Made by a program: the position numbers and the translations under genes
Shown here: piece by piece, positions 147-24,944 of the stretch
Layout: the number at the start of each line of letters is the position of its first letter
Numbering within the stretch: the first letter of the stretch is position 1
The notes under the pieces: model-generated
Databases searched by the model: none
The model's input: the letters and a program-made list of their open reading frames with translations, nothing else
What the model was told of the DNA's origin: nothing
From: an uncultured Roseburia sp.
GTDB taxonomy: Bacteria > Bacillota > Clostridia > Lachnospirales > Lachnospiraceae
Length of the DNA stretch: 62,622 nt
Direction of reading: 5' to 3'
Assembly (NCBI GenBank): GCA_947088345.1
Contig: CAMUGE010000010.1
Location: 1-62,622, forward strand

Positions 147-150
147 CATA

Positions 151-280: not shown

Positions 281-730
281 TTAATTACCGTCTGCACCGC
301 CGCCCTGTACGTTAACCGTCTTTGTGCAGGAAATGGTTGCTCCCGTACAGGAAATCCCTTTTGTTGTCGCCTCGTCACCGGTGGAAACCCAAACCTTGTA
401 CGTCATTACATCGCCCGACTTATATGCATTCGCATGTAAAGTGCGCTCGACTGTAACCGTGTTTCCGCTGAATGTACATGGAAATTCGGAACTTGCTTTG
501 GTCAGCGTATTGCTGAATACAAGGTTTACCGTTGAGGCGGAAGAAATGTGCTCGACATCAGATGAATGTACGCATTTTACTTCAAACACATGCGAATCGC
601 CGTTCCAATCCTGTACAGAATAAGCTTCTACCGTCCAACAGTCAGCAGAACCCGCCGTACCGCTTGCAGCATAAATTCCTTCGCTTACACCATGGTTTAC
701 CATTACTACCGGTTTTTCATAACCTCTCAT
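281..730 (-). CDS. Small protein with YEKP/EGIYAASG leader and beta-rich Cys-containing domain
   Basis: This 149-residue protein belongs to no family I can name. Residues 1-25 start MRGYEKPVV and end SEGIYAASG. The same pattern opens the otherwise unrelated protein at 24588-24944, so I read it as a leader or recognition segment. It is not a Sec signal, because it has no basic-hydrophobic core. The remainder is Thr/Ser/Val-rich with alternating hydrophobic residues and five Cys. It looks like a beta-sandwich, loosely like a carbohydrate-binding or Ig-like fold, but that is inference. It has its own likely promoter, an AGGGGG ribosome site eight bases before ATG, and its own terminator. It stands at the far end of the polysaccharide locus, about 24 kb from the PqqD-type proteins that may recognise the leader. 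A role as a processed surface protein is a hypothesis. Confidence 0.7.
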   Translation of the reverse strand: MRGYEKPVVMVNHGVSEGIYAASGTAGSADCWTVEAYSVQDWNGDSHVFEVKCVHSSDVEHISSASTVNLVFSNTLTKASSEFPCTFSGNTVTVERTLHANAYKSGDVMTYKVWVSTGDEATTKGISCTGATISCTKTVNVQGGGADGN

Positions 731-778
731 TTTGAATACCCCCTATCGCATCTAAGAAAACCTGCCTTTTCTATTAAT

Positions 779-807
779 AAAATAGCACAAACAGCGGCAT
801 TAGTAAA
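779..807 (-). promoter_or_regulatory. Likely SigA promoter of the left leader-peptide gene
   Basis: On the minus strand, TTTACT (-35) is followed by a 17-nt spacer and TATTTT (-10), about 49 nt before the ATG at 730. Each box matches consensus at four of six positions. The flanking 731-840 stretch is AT-rich and separates this gene from the glycoside hydrolase upstream. Confidence 0.45.
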
Positions 808-840
808 GAAAATATAAAAATTTTTTTACTTTTTTTTCCA

Positions 841-2496: not shown

Positions 2497-2513
2497 CGTT
2501 CTCTCCTTTCTTT

Positions 2514-3704
2514 TCAGTCAAACAAATTCATTTTTCGAATCAGGCGGCTGCGCTTCCCGGCCTCTTTTAACACATCACGCCCCCGCACACCGCGCAGAGC
2601 ATGATTATTATGATAAAACCGAATCAGCGTAGCAGCCCACAAAACGGGCCAGCACAAAAACACACGTCCCGCATTTGGGTAATTTAAATGCATCTGATGA
2701 TGGAACTCCCTGACATAAGCAAAAATTCCGGTTCCCCGCATCGCAACCATCCTGTGCTGGCCGTCATGACCAAACTCTCCCGCGGCAAACACCTCCTCCA
2801 TAAAAAGCGTGATCTCCTCCTGCGGCACATATCCGCACTTTTGCAGAAACAGCACGCGCTCTGCGGGCAGTCCGAGATCGCGCACACAGGCCGCAGTCAG
2901 AACGGCAACAAATCTTTCCGTCCCGCTCTCTTTTATCAGACGTAAAAAAGTCTCTTTTTCTCTCTCAGACACATCCCGATTCCAAAACACAACCCAGTCG
3001 CATAAAAATTTCAATCCAAACCCGGCTCGAAGAAAGTGCTGGAGCATGTGCAGCACCAGATAAAACGCATGATACGCGTCTGTCGGTCGCATCACCGAAA
3101 TTCCCCAGGACAGATCTGTCTGCGTATGTCTCCCAAACTCTTTTTGAAATTCATCTAAAAAACGGTTGGCCTTTTTGCTCTCAAAGGGTTCCGCAAGAGA
3201 ACAGTGCAGTTCCACCACAATCCCCTCCGCATTGGAAAGCTCCGTGTGATGAAGCGCCGTCTGCGTTCCGCATACAGCAAACCCCTCGCTCTTTAACAGC
3301 TCTACAGCCCGTTCAAACTCTGCTAAATCAGCGATCCAAAGGTCCACGTCGCCCGCTTTTCGCAGTTCCGGCGTCGGGTAGAAAGCTGCCGTAGCCACGC
3401 CTTTTAACACAAGCGAACGGATGCCGTTCTTTTGCAATAATCCGGTGATGTATTTCGTCAGCAACAGCAGCCTGTAATTGGAGCGCACCGTAATCACCGC
3501 CGCCTGCGCAAGCTGCTGCAGCCGGCTTTTTGACAGACCCTCCGACTCCTCCACGGCTTCATAGAGCAGCGACAGTACGGCATGTTGTTTCGCTGTCCGC
3601 ACAATCAGATCAAAATCAGCGGCGCCCTCCTGCCATACGAACTTTTTCCCGCACAGCGCAGCGCGCAGCCAGCTAAGTAAAACATTTTGCGTATGATCCA
3701 ACAT
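2514..3704 (-). CDS. Nucleotidyltransferase-fold protein (NTP_transf_5 type)
   Basis: This 396-residue protein has the core of the NTP_transf_5 nucleotidyltransferase family. The motif SLVLKGVATAAFYP is followed by LRKAGDVDLWI, which carries the metal-binding DxD pair, at about residues 110-140. Such proteins recur beside lasso-peptide, PqqD and HprK-like genes, but their reaction is mostly undetermined. An in-frame start lies 35 codons upstream, but the ATG at 3704 has GGAG six bases ahead and begins the conserved region (MLDHTQN), so I use it. The extra upstream codons would run through two strong hairpins. It shares a minus-strand run with the flippase before it and the GH2 after it. With the PqqD proteins at 22-24.5 kb it may modify a leader peptide or a surface product; that is inference. 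Confidence 0.75.
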   Translation of the reverse strand: MLDHTQNVLLSWLRAALCGKKFVWQEGAADFDLIVRTAKQHAVLSLLYEAVEESEGLSKSRLQQLAQAAVITVRSNYRLLLLTKYITGLLQKNGIRSLVLKGVATAAFYPTPELRKAGDVDLWIADLAEFERAVELLKSEGFAVCGTQTALHHTELSNAEGIVVELHCSLAEPFESKKANRFLDEFQKEFGRHTQTDLSWGISVMRPTDAYHAFYLVLHMLQHFLRAGFGLKFLCDWVVFWNRDVSEREKETFLRLIKESGTERFVAVLTAACVRDLGLPAERVLFLQKCGYVPQEEITLFMEEVFAAGEFGHDGQHRMVAMRGTGIFAYVREFHHQMHLNYPNAGRVFLCWPVLWAATLIRFYHNNHALRGVRGRDVLKEAGKRSRLIRKMNLFD

Positions 3705-3745: not shown

Positions 3746-3854
3746 AGGAGAAATCTGCGAATGCAGTTTCTCCTGTCGGATCAGGGCTTATTTGTGACGT
3801 TCCCGGCACAAATAGCCGTGTGATAAAATCAGCTATCGAGCTGATTTTTCACAC
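3746..3854 (-). promoter_or_regulatory. Three consecutive hairpins between flippase and nucleotidyltransferase genes
   Basis: Right after the flippase stop codon (minus strand) comes a 16-bp stem with one bulge: GTGTGA plus AAAATCAGCT pairing with AGCTGATTTT plus TCACAC (3818-3854). Next is a stem of 11 pairs at 3785-3817 (ATTTGTG/CACAAAT core). The third, at 3746-3774, pairs AGGAGAAA and CTGC with GCAG and TTTCTCCT. None has a classic external T-run. The row could terminate, stabilise or attenuate, and it sets apart expression of the two genes downstream. Confidence 0.6.
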
Positions 3855-5389
3855 TACTTCCTCTTCCACAATGACTTTAACCTGCCGGATAAAAAACGAA
3901 ATTCTTTCGTCTTTCCATAGACCAGCAAAAACACAAGATTAGGTACAAACAGACAGATCAGCAGGCGGCCAAACAGTATCTGCCACATACTTTCCAAAAC
4001 CAATACGCTGCGGCATATAAAATCGGTCAGATACCAGACTGCGCCCGCCACCGCCATATACACAAAATAGCGCGCAAAATAACCGGTACAGGGACATGCA
4101 AACCCATGTTTATAGAGTATATACGGTTCAACCCAAAGCGACGTAAGCGCCATACTGAGCAGTGTGCCCGCAAAGACGCCGACAGTACCCAGACATTGCA
4201 CGAGCAGCAGAGAGACAGCCAGATTAAGCAGCGCCTCCACAATCGCCTTGTACCGGTCATACCAGAACAGACCCATGGAATCCCGGAATGTCAGCGATGC
4301 ATTGCGCATTCCGTTCATATAAAAGTTTACGCAAAGTACAAAGACCACCACATCTGAAAAAAGATACTGCTTCCCGAAGCTGATCTCAATAAACGGATTG
4401 ATTACTTCGTAAAGGCAGATCACCGCAAACCCATACATCCACTGCCCAATAAAAAAAACGGCTTCAAACACTTCTTTCATATGACCGTTTTTCTGCACCG
4501 CACCCAGGTTTCCGACGCTTGCCGTAATCCCCTGATAAACCTGATTTAGCAGCTGGCGAACAGAACCGATCAGCAGATAATAATTGGAATAGCTGCCTAC
4601 GCTGACAATCCCGACAAACGCGGATAACACCAGATTGTCCGTATTATTGACAATCACTGTCCCGACCTTGTGCATCAGCATGGCTCTGATATCGGAAAAT
4701 ATTTTTTTCTGCTCCAAATGCGCCAGCTTAGGCGCATTTTTCTCCTTAAGATACGGATAAAGCCGGTTCGCATGAACGGAAATGCAAAGATTGCACAACA
4801 CAGTCGTCGCAATATTGATCACCAAAAACAGAATAAAATCATGCCGGACAACCAGCACAACGATCTGCAGCACATCCTGAATCACCCACGACATCGTCTG
4901 ATAGAAAATGCCGATATACAAAAGCTGATGTGCGTCCATCAGCGTTTTTTTATAGATCAGAAGATAGGAACATATCGCATTTGTCAGATACAGACAGTAA
5001 ATCAAAGTCAGATGCTCTACGCTCTCATAATCTTTAATAAACAAATCAAGAAACGGAATCAGCGCGCAGCCCAGAATCGCAACTACCACGGCAACTGCAT
5101 AATAAAATTTCCGAAAAAGCCGCATCAGAGACTTTTGTTTTTCTATGTCGTTACAGGCGATCGGCTTATAGAGAGCGAACGTAATTGCTGTGCCGACTCC
5201 CATCTCCGAGAGCGAGAGAACCTGAATAATATCCAGAAACAGGCCGTTAACTCCCACATAGCTTTCACTTAACGTATGTGTAAATACAACGCGCAGCAGA
5301 TATCCCATAATAATCGCACTTAAGCGGGAAATCAGGGCAACTGTTGTATTTCGCGCGGAGTATTCTGTCCTTGTTCTTGCTTCTTTCAT
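3854..5389 (-). CDS. Polysaccharide flippase (Wzx/MATE-like)
   Basis: This 511-residue protein has about 12-14 hydrophobic helices. It opens with the typical repeat-unit flippase start (ARNTTVALISRLSAIIMGYL) and has a small polar patch between helices 6 and 7. Proteins of this type move lipid-linked oligosaccharides across the cytoplasmic membrane. The gene begins in an ATGA overlap with the stop of the Stealth gene upstream, so the two are translationally coupled. It is the second integral exporter in the locus after PelG. The locus may therefore make two polymers: one Pel-like and synthase-driven, and one assembled on a lipid carrier and decorated by the Stealth enzyme. Confidence 0.85.
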   Translation of the reverse strand: MKEARTRTEYSARNTTVALISRLSAIIMGYLLRVVFTHTLSESYVGVNGLFLDIIQVLSLSEMGVGTAITFALYKPIACNDIEKQKSLMRLFRKFYYAVAVVVAILGCALIPFLDLFIKDYESVEHLTLIYCLYLTNAICSYLLIYKKTLMDAHQLLYIGIFYQTMSWVIQDVLQIVVLVVRHDFILFLVINIATTVLCNLCISVHANRLYPYLKEKNAPKLAHLEQKKIFSDIRAMLMHKVGTVIVNNTDNLVLSAFVGIVSVGSYSNYYLLIGSVRQLLNQVYQGITASVGNLGAVQKNGHMKEVFEAVFFIGQWMYGFAVICLYEVINPFIEISFGKQYLFSDVVVFVLCVNFYMNGMRNASLTFRDSMGLFWYDRYKAIVEALLNLAVSLLLVQCLGTVGVFAGTLLSMALTSLWVEPYILYKHGFACPCTGYFARYFVYMAVAGAVWYLTDFICRSVLVLESMWQILFGRLLICLFVPNLVFLLVYGKTKEFRFLSGRLKSLWKRK

Positions 5390-6435
5390 ATTCCATGGCC
5401 TTTCTCAAATGAAGACTGTTCAGGAAAAATTTTCTCGAACGCACCTTTAATCTGCCCTTTTGCATACGCAAAATCAATCGGGTTGTTTGCGTCGTTGATA
5501 CAGATGATGTTTGCTCTCTGCCTCAAAATCGTATCAATCAGCTTTGGATTATCACTTTCCACATCAAAATAGCGAAAATGCCTGGTAATATTTTTTGCCT
5601 TAAACCTGCCGGTCAGCTTCTGCCACTCCCGGATCAGATACTGGTTGACATCCGCCTCGCTTCGAAATCGGTGGCTGCATGTCGTATCTAGAAGCTCCCC
5701 CTCTTTCTCCCAAAGCAGTTCAAATGCGCTCTTTAGAAACGGAGACGGGCCGTGCACCGTATAAAATCCTGTAAAAAGCGGAAATGTCAGCTCCAGAATG
5801 TTGTAGAAAAAATAAAGCGGCGGGTACCCCGGCTTTAAATAATTGCCAATCTGTCCTTTTACATTATCCCGCTTGGTAAAATATTTCGAAAGCACAATCG
5901 AATTATTCAGAAAAATATGCGACATCACCGGATTGTCGGGATTTGCGACAACCGGCTGAAACGCCAGCATATCGCAGGGCAGACCGCCCTCAAAAAAATC
6001 TCTTTCCGCCACCGCTTTGAGCAGAAAAATATCGTCGTTAAAATAGACGAACCGCTCAGACAGACCGCTGATTTTATGCATATGCCATTCTATGGTGTGC
6101 GAATTGAATGTCGGCAGATACTTCTCCGGAATATATTCTTCATGGCGCACAATATGAAGCTTGGGATGTGATGTAAGAAGCCACTCCGGCAGATGTCCCC
6201 ATGTGACAAAGTGAATTTTCCTCACCCATGGAGCATACTTTTCCACACCGCGAAACCAGTATTTTAAATTATCCCAGTCGCGGTAGCGCTCGTCCGAATC
6301 ATCGTTTTCGGCTCGTCTTAAAGCAGAAGCTCCGGCCGGATACATCTCTTTTCCATAACGATTCTTTTCTGCCTGCCATGCGGCGTCGCCGCCGTCCACC
6401 CAGGTTATCACAAAATCTATGCTCTCTCCTCGCAA
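5386..6435 (-). CDS. Stealth-family sugar-phosphate transferase
   Basis: This 349-residue protein carries the ordered conserved regions of Stealth proteins: CR1 (IDFVITWVDGGD, residues 6-17), CR2 (RDWDNLKYWFRGVE with APWVRKIHFVTWG, about 52-80), and CR3 (FNSHTIEWHMHKISGLSE then RFVYFNDDIFL, about 110-140). Family members move hexose-1-phosphate units onto capsule or exopolysaccharide, forming phosphodiester links, as in GlcNAc-1-phosphotransferase. The start is TTG at 6435 with GGGAGAGG four bases ahead; no ATG precedes the conserved IDFVITW block. The gene is divergent from the DUF4832 lipoprotein at 6516 across an 80-bp gap and coupled to the flippase by a 4-bp overlap. It probably adds phosphosugar side groups or builds a phosphodiester backbone on the polymer the flippase exports. 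Confidence 0.9.
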   Translation of the reverse strand: MRGESIDFVITWVDGGDAAWQAEKNRYGKEMYPAGASALRRAENDDSDERYRDWDNLKYWFRGVEKYAPWVRKIHFVTWGHLPEWLLTSHPKLHIVRHEEYIPEKYLPTFNSHTIEWHMHKISGLSERFVYFNDDIFLLKAVAERDFFEGGLPCDMLAFQPVVANPDNPVMSHIFLNNSIVLSKYFTKRDNVKGQIGNYLKPGYPPLYFFYNILELTFPLFTGFYTVHGPSPFLKSAFELLWEKEGELLDTTCSHRFRSEADVNQYLIREWQKLTGRFKAKNITRHFRYFDVESDNPKLIDTILRQRANIICINDANNPIDFAYAKGQIKGAFEKIFPEQSSFEKGHGI

Positions 6436-6515
6436 ATTACCTCTCCCAAACCTTTCCTTTTTGTGCTACAATAATACCAGTCTGCTCAAATCAATTAAAA
6501 AAACAGAGGAACCTT

Positions 6516-7943
6516 ATGAAAAAAAAATCGATCCTGCTCTGCAGCCTCATTGCTCTGCTGCTCGCCGCCGGCTGTTTAAGCGCATACCGGATTTATACGC
6601 TCTATTACTTTCAGACAGATTACCGCCCGGCCGAATTTTCGGCGTCGGACAAAACTCTGCAAAATCCATGGCGCGGCTGGTATCAAATCTATGGCTACGC
6701 GCTCTCCGACACGGCGCCGCCCGATCCGCAAACGATACAAAAAACGATACGCCGCGACGAGAACGAACTTGTCCTGCTGCAGATCAACCTGCGCGAATAT
6801 GCCGGCTCCGATCTCAGCAAAACAGCGCTTGCCCAGCTTGATTCACTTCTGCGAACATGGAAAGCTTCCGGCAAACAGCTGATTCTGCGCTTTTTATACG
6901 ACTGGAACGGTCAGGCAAAAGAATCGGAACCAAAAGAAATCGAAACCGTCATGCGGCATATGGAACAGACCGCGGAAATCGTAAACCGTTACAAAGACTG
7001 CGTGTGGCTGATACAGGGCATTTATGTCGGAAACAACGGCGAAATGAACAACTCAGCCTTTATGTCACAGGAAAATATGTGTGAACTCGCCGCATATCTC
7101 GACTCTGTGATTGACAGCGACATCTTCCTTTCCGTTCGCACGCCCGCGCACTGGCGTGCCGTCGCCGGGACGTTCCTGCCGTTGGAGAGCGATCTTGCAT
7201 TTTCAGGCAGAGGCGCCGCGCGAATCGGCCTTTACAATGACGGAATGCTCGGTTCCGCCAATGACCTGGGTACTTACGGCGATACCCCGCTTGACGCTGC
7301 CGCGGATTTTCATGCAAAAGGCACGCGGAAAGAAGAACTCCTTTTTCAAAACAGCCTTTGCGCTTACGTACCAAACGGCGGCGAAGTTGTCGTCGACAAT
7401 CCATACAATGATTTCTCAAATGCACTTTCGGATCTGAAAACAATGCACGTCGCCTACTTAAACAGCGGCTATGACAAAGCCGTCCTTGATAAGTGGCGTG
7501 GCTCCGTATTTGAGAACGACGACTGCTTTTACGGCACGGACGGTTATACCTACATCGGGGAACATCTCGGCTATCGCTATGCGCTGAACTCGTGCACATT
7601 TACATTTGATCCGTTTTCCCCTGATCCGGGCACACTTACGCTCTCGGTCGAAAACACCGGATTTGCCTCCTGCTTTCGCCCGCTCGTCTCTGAATTTACA
7701 ATTGTAAACGAAAACGGCTCTGTCGCAGACACCATCGCGGCGTCAGATGATGCGCGCTTCTGGGGCGGCGGGCAGACTGCGTCTCTTTCTGTTACGCTTG
7801 ATATACGCACTTATAAAACCGGAACATTTCGAATCTACTATCGCCTGACCGACACCGCGCTAAACCGCGAGATCGAATTGGCCAATCGGGAGACGCCCAC
7901 AAAATACGGCTATTTTCTGGGAGAGCTGACCGTCACAAAGTAA
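6516..7943 (+). CDS. DUF4874/DUF4832 glycoside-hydrolase-like protein, membrane-anchored
   Basis: This 475-residue protein begins with a basic-hydrophobic segment ending LLAAGC, a plausible lipobox at Cys20, so it is secreted and probably a lipoprotein. The DUF4874 hallmark NPWRGWYQIYGY lies near 51-62. Further conserved motifs, shared with its paralogue at 7991-9277, include GIYVGNNGEM, SVRTPAHWR and YNDGMLGS...LGTYG; the C-terminal beta domain matches DUF4832. This domain pair resembles TIM-barrel glycosidases, but no activity is established that I know of. Start: ATG at 6516 with AGAGGA five bases ahead; the longer open frame upstream runs into the divergent Stealth gene. It is the only plus-strand gene among those of the polymer core and may act on the polymer outside the membrane. 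Confidence 0.82.
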   Translation: MKKKSILLCSLIALLLAAGCLSAYRIYTLYYFQTDYRPAEFSASDKTLQNPWRGWYQIYGYALSDTAPPDPQTIQKTIRRDENELVLLQINLREYAGSDLSKTALAQLDSLLRTWKASGKQLILRFLYDWNGQAKESEPKEIETVMRHMEQTAEIVNRYKDCVWLIQGIYVGNNGEMNNSAFMSQENMCELAAYLDSVIDSDIFLSVRTPAHWRAVAGTFLPLESDLAFSGRGAARIGLYNDGMLGSANDLGTYGDTPLDAAADFHAKGTRKEELLFQNSLCAYVPNGGEVVVDNPYNDFSNALSDLKTMHVAYLNSGYDKAVLDKWRGSVFENDDCFYGTDGYTYIGEHLGYRYALNSCTFTFDPFSPDPGTLTLSVENTGFASCFRPLVSEFTIVNENGSVADTIAASDDARFWGGGQTASLSVTLDIRTYKTGTFRIYYRLTDTALNREIELANRETPTKYGYFLGELTVTK

Positions 7944-10049: not shown

Positions 10050-10135
10050 ACAATTCACTCCCCCAGTATCTAAGTATGAAAAAACACTTTCGCCGCAGCG
10101 TCTGCGCACTCGCCGCGCTGCGCGTACACGCGCTT

Positions 10136-11341: not shown

Positions 11342-11721
11342 AGGTCTGCTTCCCTTAATCTGTCCTTTATTTTACGCATCATTTCAAGCAGCGTCTCATT
11401 CTCCTGATTCAACAGCGACACATGCATTGCAAGCTCCTGGTTTTTTCGCAGCAGCTGCGAAACGGCGCAGCTTAAATAGAATACGCTGAATATAATCGAA
11501 AAACTGATCAGAAGAAACGCCGGAACCGCTTCACTGGGTATATATCTGCTCCAGGCGGAAAGACCCGGCAGACTGCCAAGGAAAATTAAAATCAGTGCAA
11601 ACCCGCCCCAGCACAGCCCGATTCCAACCGTGATTTTCTGATAGACATAGGAGAGGAAATCAACAGTCAGCAGCAAAATCCCTTCCAATACTGTTATGAC
11701 ACACAAAATCATCGCCGTCAT
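11338..11721 (-). CDS. DUF2304 membrane protein
   Basis: This 127-residue protein has three hydrophobic helices (about 1-20, 28-50, 62-85) followed by a charged coiled-coil tail with NQENETLLEMM. Length, helix number, and the LGSLPGL segment after helix 2 fit the DUF2304 family, which is usually encoded beside GT2 polyprenyl-sugar synthases. It probably helps anchor or handle the lipid-linked sugar of the GT2 encoded two genes on. It overlaps both the PelG stop and the GT4 start by 4 bp. Confidence 0.7.
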   Translation of the reverse strand: MTAMILCVITVLEGILLLTVDFLSYVYQKITVGIGLCWGGFALILIFLGSLPGLSAWSRYIPSEAVPAFLLISFSIIFSVFYLSCAVSQLLRKNQELAMHVSLLNQENETLLEMMRKIKDRLREADL

Positions 11722-13193: not shown

Positions 13194-13236
13194 AATAATC
13201 CTCATTTCTGCAACATAGCCGAAAACAATGAACCGT

Positions 13237-16533: not shown

Positions 16534-16560
16534 TGCCAAACCCCCAATTTCTGAAGCGCT

Positions 16561-19053
16561 CTACTCGTCTATTCCAATCGGTTCTCTCGACAGATTATAG
16601 CCATAATCAATCGCCAGATTAAACAGACTGTACATCTCCTGCTCTAACACATAACAGACAAAATCATCTGTCTCATAATAGACCTGCATCTCGTTCGGGT
16701 ACATTCTCATAAAGGAGCGCGCCCAGTAATACATACGCGACATCTCAATCCAACGGTTTTCCCCCTGATACATGGTAATTCCGCTGCCAGACGGAAGCGG
16801 TCTCCTTGCTCCGTCCTTAGATACCCGCTGCCCGCTGTTCTCATACGGTACAGAATAATCAATCGGAATCTTCTCGATGAAAAAATAGACCCGCGGCGTC
16901 GGAATCGTGATCGAACCATATGCGCCCGACCGCTCCATTTCTTTTAAAAAAGTATGCAGCTCGTAATGATAACCGTAATCTTCGCCCATGCGCAGTTCAT
17001 CATTTGCCGAACAGATCGTCCATTCAAAATCATTGTTATCATGCAAAATATTCGTAAAACACGTAATTGCGGCGTTAGTCTGCAAAGCCGGGTAATCCGG
17101 CGCCCCCTTTAAAAGTCCTGCCATTCCGATCGAAATACAGACACAGGGAACCAAAAGCAGCGAGGCAAAATGCAGCGGCCATTTCTTTTGAAACCACCCG
17201 AAAAACAGCGAAAGAACCGCATCAATGCAAAGGCTCCATGCCATCACAATCACATACGCATAAAAAATGCAGGCTCGAATCGCATCCATAAGCGACGGCA
17301 GCCCCGCGCGCGACGCGCCGAACAGCACAGACATCAGCGCCAGAAAGACCGCTGTCGACATAAGTCTTGCCGCATAATCCGTCTGCTTTAACACAAAAAA
17401 CACAATGGCAAGAACCGGCAGCAGCAGAATTACGGCAGGAACGGCCAGACGAAACAAAAAGTAGTTATCCGGAATCAGGTAGGTGCACATTGCGTCCCAC
17501 AAAGCCCCCGGCAGCTTTTTAACAATACGTATCAACCGCACCGGCAGCGGATCTTTTTTGGGCGGCGCATACACCGCCTCATAACGCTGCCCTTCTGCGC
17601 CGGATAAACTCTCTGCGCCGGGTGCGGATTGCATGCCGCCGGTCACTTCTGCCGATACGCCGGACAGCTTATCCCCCTGGACGCCCGCACCGGACGGCGC
17701 GGCGGCAGACACGCGAACTATCCCGCCGCCTGCACGGAAACGTCCCATATCCCCTGTGCTGTACGTCCCGGCATATAGACCGCCAATTTTTTCCAGGGAG
17801 CCAAAACTGTCAGAAATTTCCGTATTCTCCGTCTCCGTAGACTGCGTAAACTCCTCTGTCTGCACTTCCTGTTTATTATTTTTCCCGGTAATTACGTTTA
17901 AGCCCCAGCCCAGCGACCCCTGCAGCGGCGTGCCCATTGCGAATGCAACGCCCATCGGCAGAACGGCCACAAAAACGGAAATGATCCCGGCCAGCATAAC
18001 TTTCCCAAACGCCGCTTTGCGAAACAGCCGAAATCCATATCCAAACGCAATACCAAGACAAAACAGCCCCGCAATCATTGTATTATAAAAATGTACTGCG
18101 ATCGTCATTCCAAAACTCATTGCAAAACAGGCCAGATACCACAGATTCTCTTTTGGTTTCTTCTCTCTCCGTTCAAAAAAAGCATACAGAAACCAGATCG
18201 ACGGCAAAATAAAAATCATGCCAAATTCCTGCGGAAGCGAACTGTAATAGCGCATAAATGTGTGAATACCAAAAAATGAAGCCGCCGTATAGAGGAAAAG
18301 TCCGATGTATCCTGCATATTTTGATCTGCAGCAGCTTTTGATAAAAGCCAGAAGCATATCATGTATGACAATTGTCTGAACAAGCCAGAACACGCGCAGA
18401 AGCACATAAGTCGGTATCCCGAACACCGTGCGAAGAAAATATATAATACAGTGAAACCCCATCGGGTAAATTCCTGCGACGAAAATTTCATTTTTCACCA
18501 TATAGTTGATCCAGTAATGGTGCACCGGAATGTCCGACATGCCAAAACCATAATTCCGCACCAGATTGACGCCATACACATACAGCAAAATAACAGTCAG
18601 CGCCGTTACCAGCAAAACGTCAAAAAAATTACGGCGAATGCGCACTCCAAAGGCGCGAATGCAGCGTTTTGCCGCATCATGGACAGTCATCCTGATATGG
18701 TGCAAAAACAGACGCAGCCCAAGCTGTCCGCCAGCAAGTTTTTCAAACGTATGTACCGCCTCTTTTACGGCGCGTACCGGATGTTTTCTGCCGAGCAGAA
18801 TATATGCCGCCCCAAACAAAACCGCCGCAAACAATGTTAACGTATACCGGTTCGAAATACGCAAAAGCTGCAGCAGATAGACAAGATTCATCACAAAGAA
18901 ATTCCCGGTAACCTGATATGTCATAAAGCGAACCGAAAACCGCATCGTCTTTATCTTCGGATACAGCAGCATCGCCGGCATCAAAAAGGTTATAACAAGA
19001 TATGCAAGTAAAGTTTCCAGAAACCGCATCACGGTAAATACTTCCATTGACAC
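16561..19053 (-). CDS. Large polytopic membrane protein, GT-C-like, function unknown
   Basis: This is an approximately 830-residue protein with about 14 hydrophobic helices. Between the two membrane halves (about 390-510) lies a low-complexity insert rich in Ser, Thr, Gly and Ala. A long C-terminal region outside the membrane carries YYWARSFMRMYP. The early loops contain YGFGMSDIPVHHYWINYMV and an Asp in the place typical of GT-C glycosyltransferases that use polyprenyl-phosphate sugars. I do not recognise a named family. It lies between PelE-like and DUF2194 genes, a place where classical Pel operons have none. The start is uncertain: TTG 19074, ATG 19059, GTG 19053 and ATG 19047 are all in frame. 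GTG at 19053 has GGGAGG eight bases ahead and is used. Confidence 0.6.
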   Translation of the reverse strand: MSMEVFTVMRFLETLLAYLVITFLMPAMLLYPKIKTMRFSVRFMTYQVTGNFFVMNLVYLLQLLRISNRYTLTLFAAVLFGAAYILLGRKHPVRAVKEAVHTFEKLAGGQLGLRLFLHHIRMTVHDAAKRCIRAFGVRIRRNFFDVLLVTALTVILLYVYGVNLVRNYGFGMSDIPVHHYWINYMVKNEIFVAGIYPMGFHCIIYFLRTVFGIPTYVLLRVFWLVQTIVIHDMLLAFIKSCCRSKYAGYIGLFLYTAASFFGIHTFMRYYSSLPQEFGMIFILPSIWFLYAFFERREKKPKENLWYLACFAMSFGMTIAVHFYNTMIAGLFCLGIAFGYGFRLFRKAAFGKVMLAGIISVFVAVLPMGVAFAMGTPLQGSLGWGLNVITGKNNKQEVQTEEFTQSTETENTEISDSFGSLEKIGGLYAGTYSTGDMGRFRAGGGIVRVSAAAPSGAGVQGDKLSGVSAEVTGGMQSAPGAESLSGAEGQRYEAVYAPPKKDPLPVRLIRIVKKLPGALWDAMCTYLIPDNYFLFRLAVPAVILLLPVLAIVFFVLKQTDYAARLMSTAVFLALMSVLFGASRAGLPSLMDAIRACIFYAYVIVMAWSLCIDAVLSLFFGWFQKKWPLHFASLLLVPCVCISIGMAGLLKGAPDYPALQTNAAITCFTNILHDNNDFEWTICSANDELRMGEDYGYHYELHTFLKEMERSGAYGSITIPTPRVYFFIEKIPIDYSVPYENSGQRVSKDGARRPLPSGSGITMYQGENRWIEMSRMYYWARSFMRMYPNEMQVYYETDDFVCYVLEQEMYSLFNLAIDYGYNLSREPIGIDE

Positions 19054-19096
19054 TGCCATCACCTCCCAGGTCAAAATTAAAAGATCCTTTTATACT

Positions 19097-20047
19097 TCAG
19101 CCGAATGTGCGAATCAGCTCTAATGTCTCCCTGTCAATGATCACGCTGGACTGTTTCAGCTCGTCCATTGCCGCAAAAAACTTTTCTTTGTCCTGCGTTG
19201 TAAAATACAATTTTAATTTACACGTATAACTCGATAATTCGTCTGGATACTGTGCCGCAGCGCGCGTACACCAGACCTCCATCCGCTCAAAATCCCGTAT
19301 ATCCAAAAGACGCATACAAATCCAGTTGTAATATTCGCTGGTCATCTGATGCGCCGCCTTTCGATACAGCGTCTCGCCCGTACTGACAAACAACTCCACC
19401 ATATTTTTCTGTTCCATCTCGGTAAACACCTTTTGTTCCAGCACATTATTCATATAAGGGAACAAAAAATGTTCACACTCCGTCTCGTCTTCCTCTTCCG
19501 TTTCAATCTGATTGATCATCTTTTGGACACTGGCGCGGAAATTGTTCAGCTCATCCTGCAGGACGGATGCGGCATAATGCGATGTTTCCGAGTCCGGACT
19601 GTTAAGCGCAAGCGAAATAGATGCAAGTGAATTCTGGATATCGCCGCGGATAATATTCAGCATCAGATTCCTTAAACTCGCCTTATCGCTCACCGCAATC
19701 GCCTCCTCAAGCGGCGCAATATTCCGCTCCCGCTCCTCGTCCGCACGGTCATGCGTCTTGACGCGTTCCTTGCTGAAAATGACATCCTCAAGATCCACAT
19801 CCTGCCGGAACACAAATAAAAACAACAGATGCCCCACAAAAAAAAACAAAGGGCCTACGACCGGGCAAAACAGCATCACAGAAAATTTAATGAGATATGC
19901 AAGTTTGCCGTCCTTTTGAAACGCCTCCTGCGCATCCGCTTCCTGCTTCTTCTGCTTTGCATAATGCAGCAGTCCAAACACAAGATATAAAATGGCAGCC
20001 AGCGTATTGCAAAGCAGAATAAGAACAAAAATCAGTTCTCTCGTCAT
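19097..20047 (-). CDS. pelE: PelE-like membrane/TPR protein
   Basis: This 316-residue protein has two N-terminal transmembrane helices (about 5-27 and 50-80) followed by a soluble helical region of about 200 residues (for example FHLRKAAHQM-type pairs, YNWICMRLLDIRD, WCTRAAAQYP) that looks like TPR-type repeats. That plan, two helices plus TPRs, matches PelE, which sits in the inner-membrane Pel complex with PelD, PelF and PelG. The gene overlaps the PelD-like gene by 4 bp (ATGA), as pelD and pelE do elsewhere. Sequence identity is likely low, so the call rests on architecture and position. Confidence 0.65.
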   Translation of the reverse strand: MTRELIFVLILLCNTLAAILYLVFGLLHYAKQKKQEADAQEAFQKDGKLAYLIKFSVMLFCPVVGPLFFFVGHLLFLFVFRQDVDLEDVIFSKERVKTHDRADEERERNIAPLEEAIAVSDKASLRNLMLNIIRGDIQNSLASISLALNSPDSETSHYAASVLQDELNNFRASVQKMINQIETEEEDETECEHFLFPYMNNVLEQKVFTEMEQKNMVELFVSTGETLYRKAAHQMTSEYYNWICMRLLDIRDFERMEVWCTRAAAQYPDELSSYTCKLKLYFTTQDKEKFFAAMDELKQSSVIIDRETLELIRTFG

Positions 20048-22242
20048 ATGGCCACATCCTCCTGTATTCGGCTCTCATATCCGGTATTGCGAAAACGTTT
20101 GATTACAAAATCGGCGTCTTCCGCATTTGTATTTGACAGGAGCGCATACAGATTACCGTCCGCCATTGTGCCGATATAATCCGTCTGGCGCATCAGTTTA
20201 GCCAGCGCGTTACCTGCATCCTCCAGGTTATGTTCCCCCAGATCAACCGCGAGAATCGTACACTCGGTCAGTCCTTTGTTTCTCGCTCCAAGATATGCCT
20301 TTACTAACGATTCAAACGCCTCTGTCCCAAGAATTTTTGTGCCGCCCAGATAGCGTTCATTTTCAAGCGCAGCCAGATAACGGTTCGCCCGCAGAACCGC
20401 ATTCTGAATCAGATAACCGATGACAACAAGCATGTTCGCCTGTCCGAGCGTCATGCGTTCCCATGGAATCCCCCATACCATCAAAATCAGCTCCATCTCG
20501 TCCTCCGCATAGATGGCGTCGGCCATCAGAGGATATTTTGCATCCATATTCCGGTTGATATAGACTCGTTTTTCTTTGAGCGGCTGATACATATCTTCCA
20601 TTTTGGTATACTCAATCGAATTTCCAAGTTCCCTTGCTTTTTTCGAGGTTGCCGAAAACAGTCTCGCATACGAACGGTTTGCCACCGTGTAGATTGCCAC
20701 GTCTTTACTGTCAATCAGCTTTGCCAGAATCTGCGCCGCGTAAAAGAGCACTTCGGAAGGCTCATACTGGTCAAGACTCGACGTGATCTCATAGATCTTT
20801 CCAAAACTGTCATTCTGGTTGACCAACTGTACCTCCAGCATGTTTTTGATACGCACATTGCTGGTGTTGATATCCTCGATATCGTCCAGCTGATGTTCCA
20901 TATACTGCACTTCGCCTTTATTTTCGCCGTGTATTGTGCGCAGGCGGTCTTTCATATAGCCTACCACAAGTCCCAGTATAAAAAGCTGTGCAATCCAGAC
21001 ATATGTATTATAATCAAGCAGAACGTCAAGTCCGCTCCTTGTGTACATCTGACGAAAACAGTAGCCCGCCACTGCCAGCACAGCCGAAAAGGTTGCCTGC
21101 TGCTGGCCATATAAAATAGCAAACAGCAGCACATAGAGCAGATAAAAATCAAGGTTTGCAAAGTATCTGCTCCCGACAGCTCTGTTATTTAACATAAAAA
21201 ACGGAATAAAACAGATCAGATTTTCAAGAAACGGAATCATTGCTCCCCGAATCACACGAAAGCTCTGCTTTAAGTCCCGCGTCTTGTTCTTCCTGACTTC
21301 CTCCAGTTTTACAAATCTGCCGCTGTGCTTTTTGATGTAGCGCACAATCTTTACGGCGACTTCATCCTCATGATGAAAAATCGTAAGTCCAAACTCATCC
21401 GCGAAACGTCTGGCCGATAAAATGACCCGCGACGCAGTTCCAACCGTATTATCCACAACAGAAACGTCTGCTCCCATCTCGCCCGCAATAATTTTAGCAA
21501 GTCTGCTCTCATCCGTCTCCTCTCCGGAGGAGATATGGTAGAGCGTTTCCTGTAACGATGGCGCGCGCACCGTTTTGTAGATCGCCTCCACTGCATCATC
21601 TGCATACAGCAGTGAAAAAATTTTATTTGCGTTCGCCTGTATAGAACCGGTACGAATCGCCTCGATACACATCTTCGCACAGGGATTGCCCTCAATCGCA
21701 GATACATTGTCTGCCTGCTCTTTGTTCGGGATCATATACAGATGATCCATGCGAAGAACAACTGTATCCACTCCCATCGTGTGTTTGTAATTACGGCAGA
21801 TCTCCTCCCCCTGTGCGATGGAGATCCCGCGGAAACTAAACACAGACGTCTCCTGCGTCTCGTCTATATCATTCGGGTATGACTGTGTGTAAACCTCCTG
21901 GGAAGAAAGATAGATAAAACGCCCCTTTTTCTGCATGGAGAATGAGGTCAGCACATTCTGCAGAGCCGTCTGATAGCGCACCGATTCTTTCCTTGCATCA
22001 GACCAGTTAAAATTTGAATCATATGCGCCCAGAAAAATTGTGATATCAGGCCTTACACTGTCAAAGATCTCTTTCAGGCAATCGCTCTCATACGGAAATC
22101 GGTATCGCTCATATGCATTTTTATAAACGCCGATCTGATATTTGGAACCGGTCAGCACATAGGAGTGATGCCCCTCTTTGTTTAGTTTTATCAGCAATGA
22201 CCTCATCAGCTCATTGTCACCGCCAACCAGCAATACTTCCAT
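20044..22242 (-). CDS. pelD: PelD-like c-di-GMP receptor fused to a degenerate SDR epimerase domain
   Basis: This 732-residue protein has four parts. Residues 1-305 have the fold pattern of an extended short-chain dehydrogenase (NDP-sugar epimerase) but lack a clean GxxGxxG loop and the catalytic Tyr-x3-Lys. About 330-430 holds four transmembrane helices. About 470-610 fits a GAF domain. The last 120 residues form a degenerate GGDEF domain: GGDEF is replaced by ADGNL (694-698), while RQTD (685-688) keeps the RxxD inhibitory-site motif at the canonical five-residue distance. That is the PelD arrangement: no cyclase activity but c-di-GMP binding that switches on polymer synthesis. The SDR part may be a fossil of a fused UDP-sugar epimerase such as PelX. 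It is coupled to pelE by 4 bp. Confidence 0.82.
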   Translation of the reverse strand: MEVLLVGGDNELMRSLLIKLNKEGHHSYVLTGSKYQIGVYKNAYERYRFPYESDCLKEIFDSVRPDITIFLGAYDSNFNWSDARKESVRYQTALQNVLTSFSMQKKGRFIYLSSQEVYTQSYPNDIDETQETSVFSFRGISIAQGEEICRNYKHTMGVDTVVLRMDHLYMIPNKEQADNVSAIEGNPCAKMCIEAIRTGSIQANANKIFSLLYADDAVEAIYKTVRAPSLQETLYHISSGEETDESRLAKIIAGEMGADVSVVDNTVGTASRVILSARRFADEFGLTIFHHEDEVAVKIVRYIKKHSGRFVKLEEVRKNKTRDLKQSFRVIRGAMIPFLENLICFIPFFMLNNRAVGSRYFANLDFYLLYVLLFAILYGQQQATFSAVLAVAGYCFRQMYTRSGLDVLLDYNTYVWIAQLFILGLVVGYMKDRLRTIHGENKGEVQYMEHQLDDIEDINTSNVRIKNMLEVQLVNQNDSFGKIYEITSSLDQYEPSEVLFYAAQILAKLIDSKDVAIYTVANRSYARLFSATSKKARELGNSIEYTKMEDMYQPLKEKRVYINRNMDAKYPLMADAIYAEDEMELILMVWGIPWERMTLGQANMLVVIGYLIQNAVLRANRYLAALENERYLGGTKILGTEAFESLVKAYLGARNKGLTECTILAVDLGEHNLEDAGNALAKLMRQTDYIGTMADGNLYALLSNTNAEDADFVIKRFRNTGYESRIQEDVAI

Positions 22243-22278: not shown

Positions 22279-22557
22279 TTACTCTGAAATATCCGAAAAC
22301 GCGCTATCTATTCCCGCTTCTTTAAGACTTTCCAGAAACGAAATAGTATCCGCTCTCGCCTCGTCAAATACGATCCCATATTCTCTGCTTAATTCTGCCG
22401 CAGCTTCCGTCACGCCGCTTCCTGTGCAAATCAGTCTCCACAAAAGCGCGCCGCTTTCATTTAATTCCAGCGGACGCCTGTAATCTTTTCCGTCCTGCGC
22501 AAGGTCTAATAACCAGTAGCTCCCGGCCGCTTTGCGAAGCGTATAGTCTGATTTCAT
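22279..22557 (-). CDS. PqqD-like small protein (RRE fold)
   Basis: This 92-residue protein has the PqqD pattern: beta-rich start (YTLRKAAGSYWLLD), RPLELNESGALLWRLI (about 38-53), then helices EAAAELSREYG and ISFLESLKEAGI. PqqD-family domains are RiPP recognition elements that bind leader peptides and present them to enzymes. The start is moved to the ATG at 22557, with GGGAG six bases ahead. It lies between the S26 peptidase and the PelD-like gene, with 36 bp to the latter, so it is co-transcribed with the polymer operon. The LNESG core matches that of the PqqD domain fused to the HprK-like protein at 23404. Probable partners are the two EGIYxASG proteins; this is inference. Confidence 0.85.
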   Translation of the reverse strand: MKSDYTLRKAAGSYWLLDLAQDGKDYRRPLELNESGALLWRLICTGSGVTEAAAELSREYGIVFDEARADTISFLESLKEAGIDSAFSDISE

Positions 22558-22618
22558 GCCAATCTCCCATTCCCGCATCTTTTACCTGTCCGCAGCGTTA
22601 CCGCCCGATACCCGCATT

Positions 22619-23107
22619 TTACTGATCCGGCGTCTGCTTTGCGCGTTTTATCCTTTCTTTAAAAAAATGAACCGTTATCGCTATCTTATGGCGCAGCGGC
22701 CGCACCAAAAGCCAAAGCGACGCATACGCGCGATACGGCAGATCTTTTGTGGAACAATACCTGCCGCGTCTGATAAAGCCGACCATTCTTCCCCGCAGCT
22801 GATCGCCTCTAAGCGGGCCTTCCACCCTGGTCTGGTTGTCGCCGACCATATAATAGCCGTCTTTCCTCACGTGAAAAACGCGGTGCAGCACTAAGATCCC
22901 GGCGTCCCGCCGATACAAAACGACGTCGCCGCGCAAAACGGGCTTCTCCCCTGCGCGCTGTCTTTCCCCGTTTAAAACACAAAGCGGCTCTATGATAACA
23001 CTGTCCCTGCCTGGAACAAGCATCGGATACATACTGTATCCCTCCGGCATAACACAGATTGTGTTACCCTCTCTCAACAATTGTTCAATACCGGTTTTTG
23101 TTTCCAT
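22619..23107 (-). CDS. S26-family signal-peptidase-like protease, Ser-His type, no clear membrane anchor
   Basis: This 162-residue protein has the S26 boxes: PEGYSMYPML (box B, Ser25 as nucleophile), LRGDVVLY, and LHRVFHVRKDGYYMVGDNQ, where His75 takes the place of the Lys base of bacterial type I signal peptidases. The Ser-His arrangement is that of the ER/SipW type. Unlike those it has no evident transmembrane helix at either end, only a weakly amphipathic basic C-terminus, so it may work in the cytoplasm or at the inner face. It heads the minus-strand operon that continues into pqqD-like and pelD-like genes. It is a candidate for leader removal from the EGIYxASG proteins. Start: ATG at 23107 with a weak AGAAAGAA site; a GTG at 23143 is an alternative. 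Confidence 0.8.
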   Translation of the reverse strand: METKTGIEQLLREGNTICVMPEGYSMYPMLVPGRDSVIIEPLCVLNGERQRAGEKPVLRGDVVLYRRDAGILVLHRVFHVRKDGYYMVGDNQTRVEGPLRGDQLRGRMVGFIRRGRYCSTKDLPYRAYASLWLLVRPLRHKIAITVHFFKERIKRAKQTPDQ

Positions 23108-23150
23108 ATCGTTTCTTTCTCTGTGAACCACACTTTTAGACACTCTGAAT

Positions 23151-23187
23151 TTATTATAGCATTTCTATTGCCAAAATGCTATAATAA
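23151..23187. promoter_or_regulatory. Perfect inverted repeat with mirrored extended -10 boxes (divergent promoter/operator)
   Basis: TTATTATAGCATTT (23151-23164) and its exact complement AAATGCTATAATAA (23174-23187) flank a 9-nt centre. Each arm contains TGCTATAAT, an extended -10 sequence, so identical boxes point outward to the S26 operon (minus) and the PqqD-HprK gene (plus). No strong -35 pairs with either box. The symmetry suggests a shared regulator site or paired activator-dependent promoters. Confidence 0.6.
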
Positions 23188-23403
23188 CATCACATTCCGA
23201 CCAGATTTTGTAACAGAAAAGTTGCTGTTCACACAGGTCTGTGCAAGAACTGCGCTGACCGTACGCAAGTGGTTCCGGAATGGGCAGCCCACATTCACAA
23301 TGTGAAATTCAATTGGATTATTACATGCAATTGAGAGCACAGGGAACGCAGAAAGCAGTAACAGGCAAAGCCATCCATGCTTTCCGTACAGAAAGGAGCT
23401 TTC
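23188..23403 (+). other. 216-bp leader ahead of the PqqD-HprK gene
   Basis: Between the divergent promoter and the ATG at 23404 there is a non-coding leader. I see CAATTGGATTATTACATGCAATTG, an imperfect palindrome near 23310-23333, but no riboswitch I recognise and no terminator. The ribosome site is AAAGGAG. Confidence 0.35.
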
Positions 23404-24564
23404 ATGTTAAAATTAAATGACGGTTATATATTCAGGAAGATCAACGGTATTCCCTATCTCTTTCCATACGGACAAAATATCGCTGACTTTCGCCGCAGCA
23501 TTCGTTTAAACGAGTCCGGAACCATTCTCTACCGTGCAATCGCGGACGGTGCAGACGAACAGGATCTCCTCCTGGCATTGTCCTCTCATTATCAGGCCAG
23601 AGATTCTGATCTGCCCGCCCTGAAAGGGGATATCGATCTGTTCCTCTCGCAGCTTGCGGCAGCAGATGTACTCTCACGTACGGATCATACTGCCGCCGAT
23701 TGTATGCCGGACTGCTATCTTCGGGTCGGAACACTTACCATTGCCTATTGCGGTCCAAAGGAACTTCTCTATGCGCCCCTTTTGGATTTCCTCTGTCAAT
23801 CCTGTGAACCGGATCTTACCTTTCGGGTTATAAATGCCGCTCCTGCCACAAAAGAAACGGCCAAAATACTGGTCCGGACAGAGGAGCTCACCATCTTAAA
23901 AAATGAAACTGCCTACATACTTCTGTACCCGAAACGCTATGGCATTCTGGAAGCCCGCATCTCCCTGGACGGGACATCGGCTCATTTTTTCTGCGCGATG
24001 CCGTTTGACACCGAACATGCCGAAAAATTATTCCACGCCTTTCGGTTTGCTTTCCTGATCCATGCGCAGCAGAAAGGATTTTTTGCGCTGCACTCGGCGT
24101 CCATCTTCTATCGGGAGAAAGCATGGCTGTTTTGCGCCCCTTCCGGCGTCGGCAAATCTACCCACACAGAACTGTGGCGCCGCCTGTATCATTCCCGCAT
24201 ATTAAATGGCGATTTAAATTTAGTCGGATTTTCAAACAACCAGGAGCCCGTTGTCTGCGGCATTCCCTGGTGCGGGACCTCCGGACTATATACCACCGAA
24301 AACATACCGCTGGGCGGCATCGTATTTTTAAAACAATCAGGCAGCGATCAGGTTCTTACACGAACCACAGAAGACGCCATACTGCACACAATCTGGCGCA
24401 CAATTTCCCCCTCCTGGACAGAAGAAATGCTTCGCCTGACAATCGCATCTGCAGAAAAACTAAGCAAAGCCGTTCCTTTCTTTCATCTGCAATGTACAAA
24501 AGAACCGTCAGCCGTTTACCTGATCAAAGAACAGATTGACGCCTTTTTAGAGCAAAAAAATTGA
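23404..24564 (+). CDS. PqqD domain fused to HprK/PEPCK-like P-loop kinase
   Basis: This 386-residue protein has a PqqD-like domain at about 1-95 (SIRLNESGTILYRAI, 32-46) followed by an HPr-kinase-like domain with the P-loop APSGVGKSTHTELW (245-258), then ILNGDLNLVGF where the usual DD pair of the kinase is GD, and CGIPWCGTSGL. HprK-like proteins accompany lasso and other RiPP clusters, where one phosphorylates a precursor peptide. Here the recognition domain is built in, so it may bind the EGIYxASG leader and phosphorylate the protein; that is inference. Start: ATG at 23404 with AGGAG five bases ahead; an in-frame start nine codons earlier lacks a site. It is divergent from the S26/PqqD operon and ends in a terminator shared with the second leader-type gene. 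Confidence 0.82.
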   Translation: MLKLNDGYIFRKINGIPYLFPYGQNIADFRRSIRLNESGTILYRAIADGADEQDLLLALSSHYQARDSDLPALKGDIDLFLSQLAAADVLSRTDHTAADCMPDCYLRVGTLTIAYCGPKELLYAPLLDFLCQSCEPDLTFRVINAAPATKETAKILVRTEELTILKNETAYILLYPKRYGILEARISLDGTSAHFFCAMPFDTEHAEKLFHAFRFAFLIHAQQKGFFALHSASIFYREKAWLFCAPSGVGKSTHTELWRRLYHSRILNGDLNLVGFSNNQEPVVCGIPWCGTSGLYTTENIPLGGIVFLKQSGSDQVLTRTTEDAILHTIWRTISPSWTEEMLRLTIASAEKLSKAVPFFHLQCTKEPSAVYLIKEQIDAFLEQKN

Positions 24565-24589
24565 GACACAACAGTGTCTCAATTTTTTT
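24553..24589. terminator. Bidirectional rho-independent terminator
   Basis: An 11-bp stem, AATTGAGACAC/GTGTCTCAATT, with a 4-nt loop is flanked by seven A on the left and seven T on the right, so it works in both directions. It overlaps the stop codons of the converging PqqD-HprK gene and the leader-type gene at 24588. Confidence 0.9.
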
Positions 24590-24944
24590 ACATATTCCAA
24601 TCCGTTACGGTATCATCCGGCCCGTATCCTTTTTTCTCCCAACTTGGTTTGCGGTTTCCGTCATCCACATGATAGCTGTCCGCATTTCCGGAATCAATAT
24701 AATGTGTCAGCAATCCACAGCCGTTCGCTGTGTTGGCCGGACATCCCAGACATCCAAACTGCTGTCTGTATCCTCTTGTCCCTCCTGCCCAATCCGAGTA
24801 ATCCGGCGCCTGCCATTCACCGTTCATATATTTACTGTCGCATTTTAAGCCGTCATTATCACCCTCTGACGCTCCGCTTGCCATATAAATACCCTCTGCT
24901 GCTCCGGCAGCAAACAAAACATGTGGCCGTTCATATGCTTTCAT
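24588..24944 (-). CDS. Small Cys/Gly/Trp-rich protein with YERP/EGIYMASG leader
   Basis: This 118-residue protein begins MKAYERPHV and reaches AEGIYMASG by residue 24, the same leader pattern as the 149-residue protein at 281-730. After the leader the two share no visible similarity. This one is Asp/Gly/Trp/Tyr-rich with four Cys in a CLGC...GC region (KCDSKY, GCLGCPAN, NGCGLL). There is no hydrophobic signal core. The start is the ATG at 24944 with GGAG six bases ahead; an ATG eight codons upstream has no better site. It converges on the PqqD-HprK gene with a shared terminator and has a strong promoter of its own. I read it as a probable substrate of the PqqD/S26/HprK module, not an enzyme; the fate of the mature part is unknown. 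Confidence 0.72.
   Translation of the reverse strand: MKAYERPHVLFAAGAAEGIYMASGASEGDNDGLKCDSKYMNGEWQAPDYSDWAGGTRGYRQQFGCLGCPANTANGCGLLTHYIDSGNADSYHVDDGNRKPSWEKKGYGPDDTVTDWNM

Follow-up and report, generated by a model that had tools for sequence, protein, structure and literature searches.

A module resembling the linear polyphosphorylated peptide system is kept with one Pel-type polysaccharide lineage in Lachnospiraceae

The window analyzed here is the whole of contig C10 (CAMUGE010000010.1, 62,622 nucleotides) in the 80-contig genome of an uncultured Roseburia sp. (GCA_947088345.1). Between positions 281 and 24,968 it harbors a Pel-like locus in which genes for a PqqD protein, a PqqD-HprK fusion, an S26 peptidase with a Ser-His-Asp triad, and an NTP_transf_5 protein lie together with genes for PelF, PelG, and PelD- and PelE-like proteins. 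Our results demonstrate that this module is kept with one Pel lineage in Lachnospiraceae. We consider it probable that it constitutes a maturation and export system for ribosomally synthesized and posttranslationally modified peptides (RiPPs), similar to that of the linear polyphosphorylated peptides (LPPs), which has been integrated into one Pel-type lineage and whose cargo, small domains of which some are carbohydrate-binding-like, would enter the matrix. The parts of the module and the Pel genes beside them are as follows; several locus genes allow earlier starts than those first listed.

281 to 730, minus strand: LP1, a leader protein of 149 amino acids, identified by its motif and by the leader profile (E 1.3e-13)
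659 to 730, minus strand: the leader of LP1, MRGYEKPVVMVNHGVSEGIYAASG, followed by a beta-sandwich domain
2514 to 3704 (earlier start at 3809), minus strand: NTP_transf_5 protein, counterpart of LppN and PsmN (PF14907, 137 bits)
11718 to 13274, minus strand: PelG (PF16933, 498 bits)
13237 to 14688, minus strand: PelF (NF038011, 372 bits)
19097 to 20047, minus strand: PelE-like protein, assigned by position and conservation, with no meaningful family match
20044 to 22242, minus strand: fusion of an Epimerase domain (42.6 bits) with a PelD-like part, in which GGDEF reaches only E 0.034 and PelD is assigned from position
22279 to 22578, minus strand: discrete PqqD RiPP recognition element (RRE), counterpart of LppB (PF05402, 47.7 bits), separated by 36 bp from the pelD-like gene downstream
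22619 to 23143 (ATG at 23107), minus strand: putative S26 Ser-His-Asp leader peptidase, counterpart of LppS, recognized by its catalytic motif and lacking a membrane segment by hydropathy
23377 to 24564 (internal ATG at 23404), plus strand: fusion of a PqqD RRE with an HprK-like kinase, counterpart of LppK (PF05402, 24.4 bits against a cutoff of 23.4)
24591 to 24944 (leader at 24873 to 24944), minus strand: LP2, a leader protein of 118 amino acids, whose leader is followed by a four-Cys domain (CDSxYM...GCLGCPA)

The first-pass annotation of this DNA had seen the same four kinds of genes beside the PelD/E/F/G-like genes, and family scans together with invariant motifs place all of them there. 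It also knew of no described system with this makeup. This no longer holds, because the components of the module correspond to those of the six-part LPP RiPP system, described in May 2026 (Popov et al., PMC13381572); among the results listed in a literature search for this gene makeup, only that description came close. As reported in its main text, LPP systems consist of the signal peptidase I (SpI)-like LppS, the RRE LppB, the HprK-like kinase LppK, the NTP transferase LppN, the exporter LppD, and precursors of 35 to 200 amino acids with the motif YxxPxVLxHQxIxFETxxS, and they lie in polysaccharide loci without a cyclase. LppK phosphorylates Ser3 of the core multiply, while LppS, helped by LppB, cuts after FET and favors the phosphorylated precursor. 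Recognition, S26-type cleavage, and multiple phosphorylation have been shown experimentally for LPP (PMC13381572). The six parts map one to one onto the module, and an MsbA-like ATP-binding cassette (ABC) exporter and an NTP transferase are present here as well. The observation of the first-pass annotation is therefore confirmed, and its interpretation, in which leader-bearing small proteins are recognized, cleaved, and perhaps phosphorylated, is partly supported: the leaders, RRE residues, enzyme motifs, and linkage are in place, and by analogy with LPP the three reactions may occur here.

The module differs from the LPP systems, as far as these are set out in the main text of PMC13381572, in that the kinase also carries a fused RRE, in that YxxPxVL is kept while HQxIxFET is replaced by NxELAEGVY, the leader ending in EG(V/I)YxASG, and in that the cargo comprises about 110 residues and is in some cases CBM2-like. 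The locus here is of Pel type, with the RRE gene abutting pelD and leader genes apparently in trans. That main text contains no words that start with Lachnospir, pel, Clostridi, cellulose, or globular; its supplements may list Lachnospiraceae loci.

Residues N40, D77, and F81 of the discrete PqqD protein occur in 17 of 17 homologues, and their spacing (37 and 4) equals that of N33, D70, and F74 of LppB, where the Asn, Asp, and Phe bind the YxxP leader (PMC13381572, main text). Of 78 homologues of the fused PqqD domain, 73 retain the Asn, 72 the Asp, and 69 the Phe. For both RREs, matches to PDB sequences were all weak, chiefly to leader-binding lasso RREs. Recognition was likewise weak for the HprK part (HprK_rel_A, E 0.0025) and for the S26 peptidase, whose match to a curated model was to archaeal-type signal peptidase I (E 2.3e-5). 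Both assignments are supported despite these scores because the catalytic motifs are invariant in relatives: all 78 kinase homologues have GxGKSTH and NGD, and all 73 distinct S26 homologues have the triad Ser37, His87, and Asp102, 72 of them lacking a membrane segment by hydropathy. The kinase homologues of genomes G035, G138, G174, and G096 contain 1, 1, 1, and 2 stop codons, respectively, within the matched stretch; in G035 and G138 the called kinase open reading frames (ORFs) are near full length, and decay is therefore not shown there.

LP1 and LP2 both carry Y.(K/R)P...EGIYxASG. The 24-residue consensus M-K-x-Y-x-K-P-x-V-L-x-N-x-E-L-A-E-G-V-Y-x-A-S-G was obtained from 81 leader proteins of the window and 80 named loci, with EG, Ser, and the last Gly fixed by the motif search itself. 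A census made from the mature parts alone, with queries drawn from the motif-found set, gave 94 distinct ORFs, 91 with strict leaders and 3 exceptions in which ED or ES replaces EG; Ser is kept in all three, one place later in two. The leaders of two further loci carry EGVYAYSG and EGVYAQSN. By hydropathy, none of the leaders measured (80 of 81) has a Sec-like hydrophobic core, and a Sec signal peptide was rejected on this basis. Counted from the Tyr of YxxP, the ASG Ser lies at Y+19 and Ser3 of LPP at Y+18; this correspondence suggests that the ASG Ser is the phosphate acceptor.

The first-pass annotation had proposed looking for PqqD and HprK-like genes near pel in other genomes. Among 60 genomes of the genus searched for PqqD-HprK and PelF, the former was found in 14, the latter in 21, and both in 13 (Fisher 4.6e-7; 2.3e-6 without G056). 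The PqqD-HprK matches of G022 and G056 are distant only, and the kinase-like genes of G056 are distant relatives located on other contigs. Kinase and PelF are found on one contig, 8 to 16 kb apart, in 8 of the 13 and on two contigs of 7.6 to 27 kb in 4. In 160 genomes of the family, one per genus with a requested completeness of at least 90%, PqqD-HprK occurs in 14, PelF in 27, and both in 11 (Fisher 1.1e-7); the two share a contig in 10 of these 11, at distances of 5.4 to 18.8 kb, and are on two contigs in G077. The leader profile (E of 0.001 or below) matches 11 of the 160 genomes, exactly those with PqqD-HprK and PelF, and the three kinase-only genomes gave no match to it at E 0.001. Loss of this linkage in relatives, which the first-pass annotation had held would speak against its idea, was not what we found, since in 10 genera the set shares a contig with pel genes of a single lineage.

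The phylogeny of PelF points in the same direction. From 48 labels, 46 PelFs were recovered (all but G028 and G048), and 45 were used after the partial sequence of G017 was dropped. All 22 PelFs from genomes with the module group within a 27-member clade (support 97/89), with none among the 18 outside it, and the module label requires 5 changes, compared with a shuffled mean of 15.3. In 14 distinct loci of the module lineage a PqqD gene immediately precedes pelD, the gaps ranging from -16 to 36 bp, versus none of 8 pelD loci from other pel lineages in the genus; four further rows of this comparison end at a contig edge, and in G081 a 147-amino-acid ORF was called between PqqD and pelD. In the PelD-like part of the 20044 to 22242 product, RQTD stands five residues before the degenerate GGDEF position, which we take to be a cyclic di-GMP (c-di-GMP) I-site-like motif. 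A script search found an RQTD-type pattern in 10 of 24 PelD-like homologues, three of these being type B, and a PDB sequence search with the PelD-like protein gave no PelD match.

All 9 genus loci that were compared by profile contained the peptidase, NTP_transf_5, exporter, and kinase, the exporter of G000 via contig C2. The 80 named loci were fetched by their kinase and overlap with the G genomes (L046 is G023, L047 is G042, L057 is G068, and L093 is G160). They contain the exporter in 71 cases, S26 in 68, a leader protein in 63, and NTP_transf_5 in 44. Among the 45 that exceed 20 kb, exporter, S26, leader protein, and kinase occur together in 35, and 32 show two or more kinds of polysaccharide gene; the set is thus usually, not always, beside exopolysaccharide (EPS) genes within reach.

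As a separate observation, G056 harbors a radical-SAM cluster (L041) with its own S26, NTP_transf_5, PqqD, exporter, and kinase-like gene, which is a different set, and a second cluster (L042) with exporter, S26, NTP_transf_5, and kinase-like gene. The latter includes a 42-amino-acid precursor-like ORF at L042:8381-8509, YETPEMEIVEFETEDVITTSG.

The ABC exporter, just beyond the contig edge on C2, was missing from the parts list of the first-pass annotation. In relatives, a gene of about 600 codons lies near that of the leader protein, and the four products scanned are ABC transporters; a C39 double-glycine exporter was rejected, as no C39 domain was matched in these four. The orthologue in the window's genome ends contig C2 (L210:7748-9553, minus strand) and is 94% identical to that of G032. 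Because the end of C2 and the start of the window overlap by exactly 55 bp, inside a tandem repeat, the exporter follows LP1. The repeat between them, at window positions 1 to 150, is GC rich with a unit of about 93 bp as judged by eye, and the assembly breaks there.

Leader-bearing small proteins, as the first-pass annotation supposed, do exist, LP1 and LP2 among them; their cargo is about 110 residues long and, where a fold can be predicted, consists of folded domains. Mature parts measure 89 to 147 residues (median, 112, one 48-residue fragment excluded). Pfam CBM_2, a carbohydrate-binding module family, matches 6 of 25 cargo representatives at E values up to 1, and scores above the Pfam cutoff in 3 leader proteins; the product of L076:14059-14469 belongs to the CBM_2 cargo. 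The predicted structure of LP1 has a mean pLDDT (predicted local distance difference test) score of 76.9, with the ten-residue blocks from 31 to 140 at 73 to 97, the last block at 55, and residues 9 to 28 below 50. In a Foldseek search against the PDB, a CBM2 was the top match (E 3.2e-4, template modeling [TM] score of 0.59 over the target, root mean square deviation of 5.3), and the TM score over the target reached 0.63, for a chitin-binding domain. The LP1 family aligns with the largest other cargo group at an hhalign probability of 95.8%. Searching PDB sequences with the families of LP1 and LP2 returned chance-level matches only.

Leader proteins are also encoded away from the locus. Of the 27 genomes that gave a kinase match, 24 (all but G022, G056, and G096) were searched for leaders. 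Matches were obtained in 21, with leader proteins at a distance or on other contigs in several genomes (G035, G050, G052, G075, G081, and others). A Cys-rich leader family (CRFGR/CRYGR...CQ.CS) is present in six genomes:

L154:3630-3887, L155:3647-3916, L156:3725-3967, L163:4340-4588, and L165:1072-1458: Cys-rich leader proteins at a distant place or on another contig than the fetched module locus
L196:9391-9636: Cys-rich leader protein adjoining S26 and kinase

The six neighbors of unlinked leader genes that were scanned encode two pseudouridine synthases, a response regulator, a histidine kinase, a flavodoxin, and a DUF3990 protein; they share no common theme from which a function could be read. 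Given the scattered leader genes and the unrelated neighbors scanned, the leader looks like a sorting tag.

Other known systems share some of these features. Gram-positive Pel loci (Whitfield 2020, PMC7112168) likewise contain PelF, PelG, and PelD/E-like genes. The lasso peptide systems of paeninodin and pseudomycoidin, as summarized in PMC13381572, have an RRE, an HprK-like kinase, an NTP transferase, and an exporter, and PsmN is reported to attach hexoses to phospho-Ser (PMC9266682); paeninodin-type leaders have W where the leaders here have Y (PMC13381572). In contrast to these systems, and in agreement with the first-pass annotation, which had seen no lasso cyclase, radical SAM, YcaO, or LanM-type enzyme, the 20 locus proteins scanned gave no match to a cyclase, a B2 peptidase, radical SAM, YcaO, or LanM. 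A lasso, lanthipeptide, or radical-SAM RiPP was rejected accordingly. In PEP-CTERM/exosortase systems the tag is C-terminal and the enzyme is a membrane protein, whereas here the leader is N-terminal and presumably read by an RRE, and the peptidase looks soluble. The two have in common a short sorting tag on many proteins and co-occurrence with EPS loci (Haft 2006, PMC1569441).

We propose that a precursor with the 24-residue leader is made in the cytoplasm and exported independently of Sec. The PqqD domain of PqqD-HprK, in which the binding residues are present, would grip YxxP and bring the kinase to the ASG Ser, as in LPP. From their spacing, the genes for the discrete PqqD, S26, and PelD likely form one operon. 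The discrete PqqD would present the precursor to S26, which would cut within EG|(V)Y..AS, so that the modified Ser stays close to the new N terminus. NTP_transf_5 may then add a sugar to the phosphate, as PsmN does, and the ABC exporter, its family evident from the scans, would release the product. Finally, the domains would join the Pel-type matrix, as linkage, CBM2 likeness, and gene order suggest, and leader genes elsewhere in the genome would be served in trans.

Several observations weigh against the preferred reading and are considered here together with the alternatives. YxxP is missing from the leaders of L107 and G138 and is FxxP in L118 and L120, the leaders here lack the FET|xxS motif at which LPP precursors are cleaved, and the kinase of G025 aligns only from residue 162, with no RRE part of its own seen. 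Conservation of the leader ends right after G, and since ASG is of the small-x-small type, a cut after ASG would fit too. Phosphorylation would then at most gate cleavage, in keeping with the preference of LppS for phosphorylated precursor (PMC13381572, main text), and an unmodified product would be exported independently of Sec. The end of conservation at G is partly imposed by the selection of the leaders; moreover, L124 keeps Ser though N replaces the last G, and Ser at Y+19 neighbors the Y+18 position of LPP Ser3, which stays in the core. This alternative, which we regard as possible but doubtful, overlaps with the preferred reading, and the likelihoods we attach to the readings do not sum to one.

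With respect to linkage, G138 lacks PelF although it has a kinase, an exporter, and a leader protein; its divergent leader (TAEGIYAGSG, no YxxP) lies beside its exporter. Five PelFs in the module clade come from genomes without the module, the pelD of one such genome, G056, is not preceded by PqqD, and 13 of the 45 named loci above 20 kb have fewer than two kinds of polysaccharide gene. The last point, the variation of the cargo domains, and the patchy patterns with conflict-like gain and loss reported by the LPP authors (PMC13381572) raise the possibility that the module makes secreted antagonistic or signaling proteins, bacteriocin-like in nature, and shares the island as co-spreading surface genes. 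We find this unlikely, given that the leader profile matches exactly those family genomes with pelF and kinase, that the PelFs of the module are in one clade, that the RRE gene abuts pelD, and that some cargo is CBM2-like.

As for the cargo, only two PDB fold matches to LP1 reach E 0.001, both to one CBM2, and its first 50 fold matches also include an adhesin domain and AP2 mu-homology domains; the match is therefore moderate. LP1 has no Pfam match, and hhalign aligns it with CBM_2-scoring cargo at a probability of 3.3%, so that identification as CBM2 by sequence is not supported. Because there is no profile alignment with that group, the link is by predicted fold only, and LP1 is CBM2-like by predicted fold with a moderate match. 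LP2 has no recognizable fold, its model (pLDDT 53.8) being too poor to search. To our knowledge, CBM2 is not known to bind Pel. A bolder form of the preferred reading is that the kinase and NTP_transf_5, perhaps with Stealth, convert the N-terminal Ser of CBM-like proteins to a phospho-sugar, which would prime the Pel-type polymer or be linked to it covalently, as a general leader-encoded route to protein-polysaccharide conjugates of the matrix with cargo from the whole genome; we consider this improbable.

Least probable of all is that the RRE and kinase regulate Pel synthesis, with PqqD binding the Pel synthase or leader proteins, the kinase gating output, and the leader proteins acting as sensors: the position of PqqD immediately before pelD in those 14 loci and the I-site-like RQTD motif fit this model, but PqqD keeps its leader-binding residues, its counterpart LppB serves leader cleavage (PMC13381572), and neither exporter nor peptidase has a place in it.

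The remaining features of the locus are as follows.

1 to 280: contig edge, the first 55 bp of which are the end of contig C2
841 to 2496, minus strand: GH2 glycoside hydrolase (Pfam), also present in G032
3854 to 5389, minus strand: polysaccharide flippase-like protein (PF01943, 22.4 bits, below the cutoff of 28.2)
5386 to 6435, minus strand: Stealth-type sugar-phosphate transferase (Stealth CR1 to CR4)
6228 to 7943, plus strand: DUF4874/DUF4832 protein a, with its start from the ORF list, overlapping the Stealth ORF
7991 to 9277, minus strand: DUF4874/DUF4832 protein b (Pfam scan)
9261 to 10139, minus strand: GT2 glycosyltransferase (Pfam scan)
10136 to 11341, minus strand: GT4 glycosyltransferase (Pfam scan)
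11338 to 11721, minus strand: DUF2304-like protein (25.4 bits against a cutoff of 25.5)
14713 to 16539, minus strand: DUF2194 protein (PF09960, 89.6 bits)
16561 to 19074, minus strand: 837-amino-acid protein with membrane-like sequence, without a Pfam match and kept in relatives

From its position, the DUF2194 protein probably stands in the place of PelA. The PqqD, Stealth, DUF4832, flippase, and RiPP module genes are not known from published Gram-positive Pel loci and are extras here. Genes for a methyl-accepting chemotaxis protein, a response regulator, and a hybrid histidine kinase adjoin the locus (25447 to 31387) and are kept in G032. Beside the EPS locus, a Wadjet-like JetA3/B3/C3/D3 set (PADLOC) is followed by a resolvase (31466 to 39988).

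Our results suggest that the module tags, trims, and exports small proteins and hint at how these bacteria might dress their slime with them. The discoverers of LPP only speculate on a role in biofilms (PMC13381572, main text); the tie to a Pel lineage and the resemblance of some cargo to carbohydrate-binding domains provide a directly testable function for LPP-type machinery. Carriers in the named records include members of gut genera, Anaerobutyricum hallii, Blautia luti, and Fusicatenibacter saccharivorans. The leader might be usable as a tag for export and phosphorylation. If the preferred reading is true, RiPP enzymes would be used in these bacteria to sort and decorate matrix proteins rather than to make natural products, and the system would represent a Gram-positive, N-terminal counterpart of PEP-CTERM sorting.

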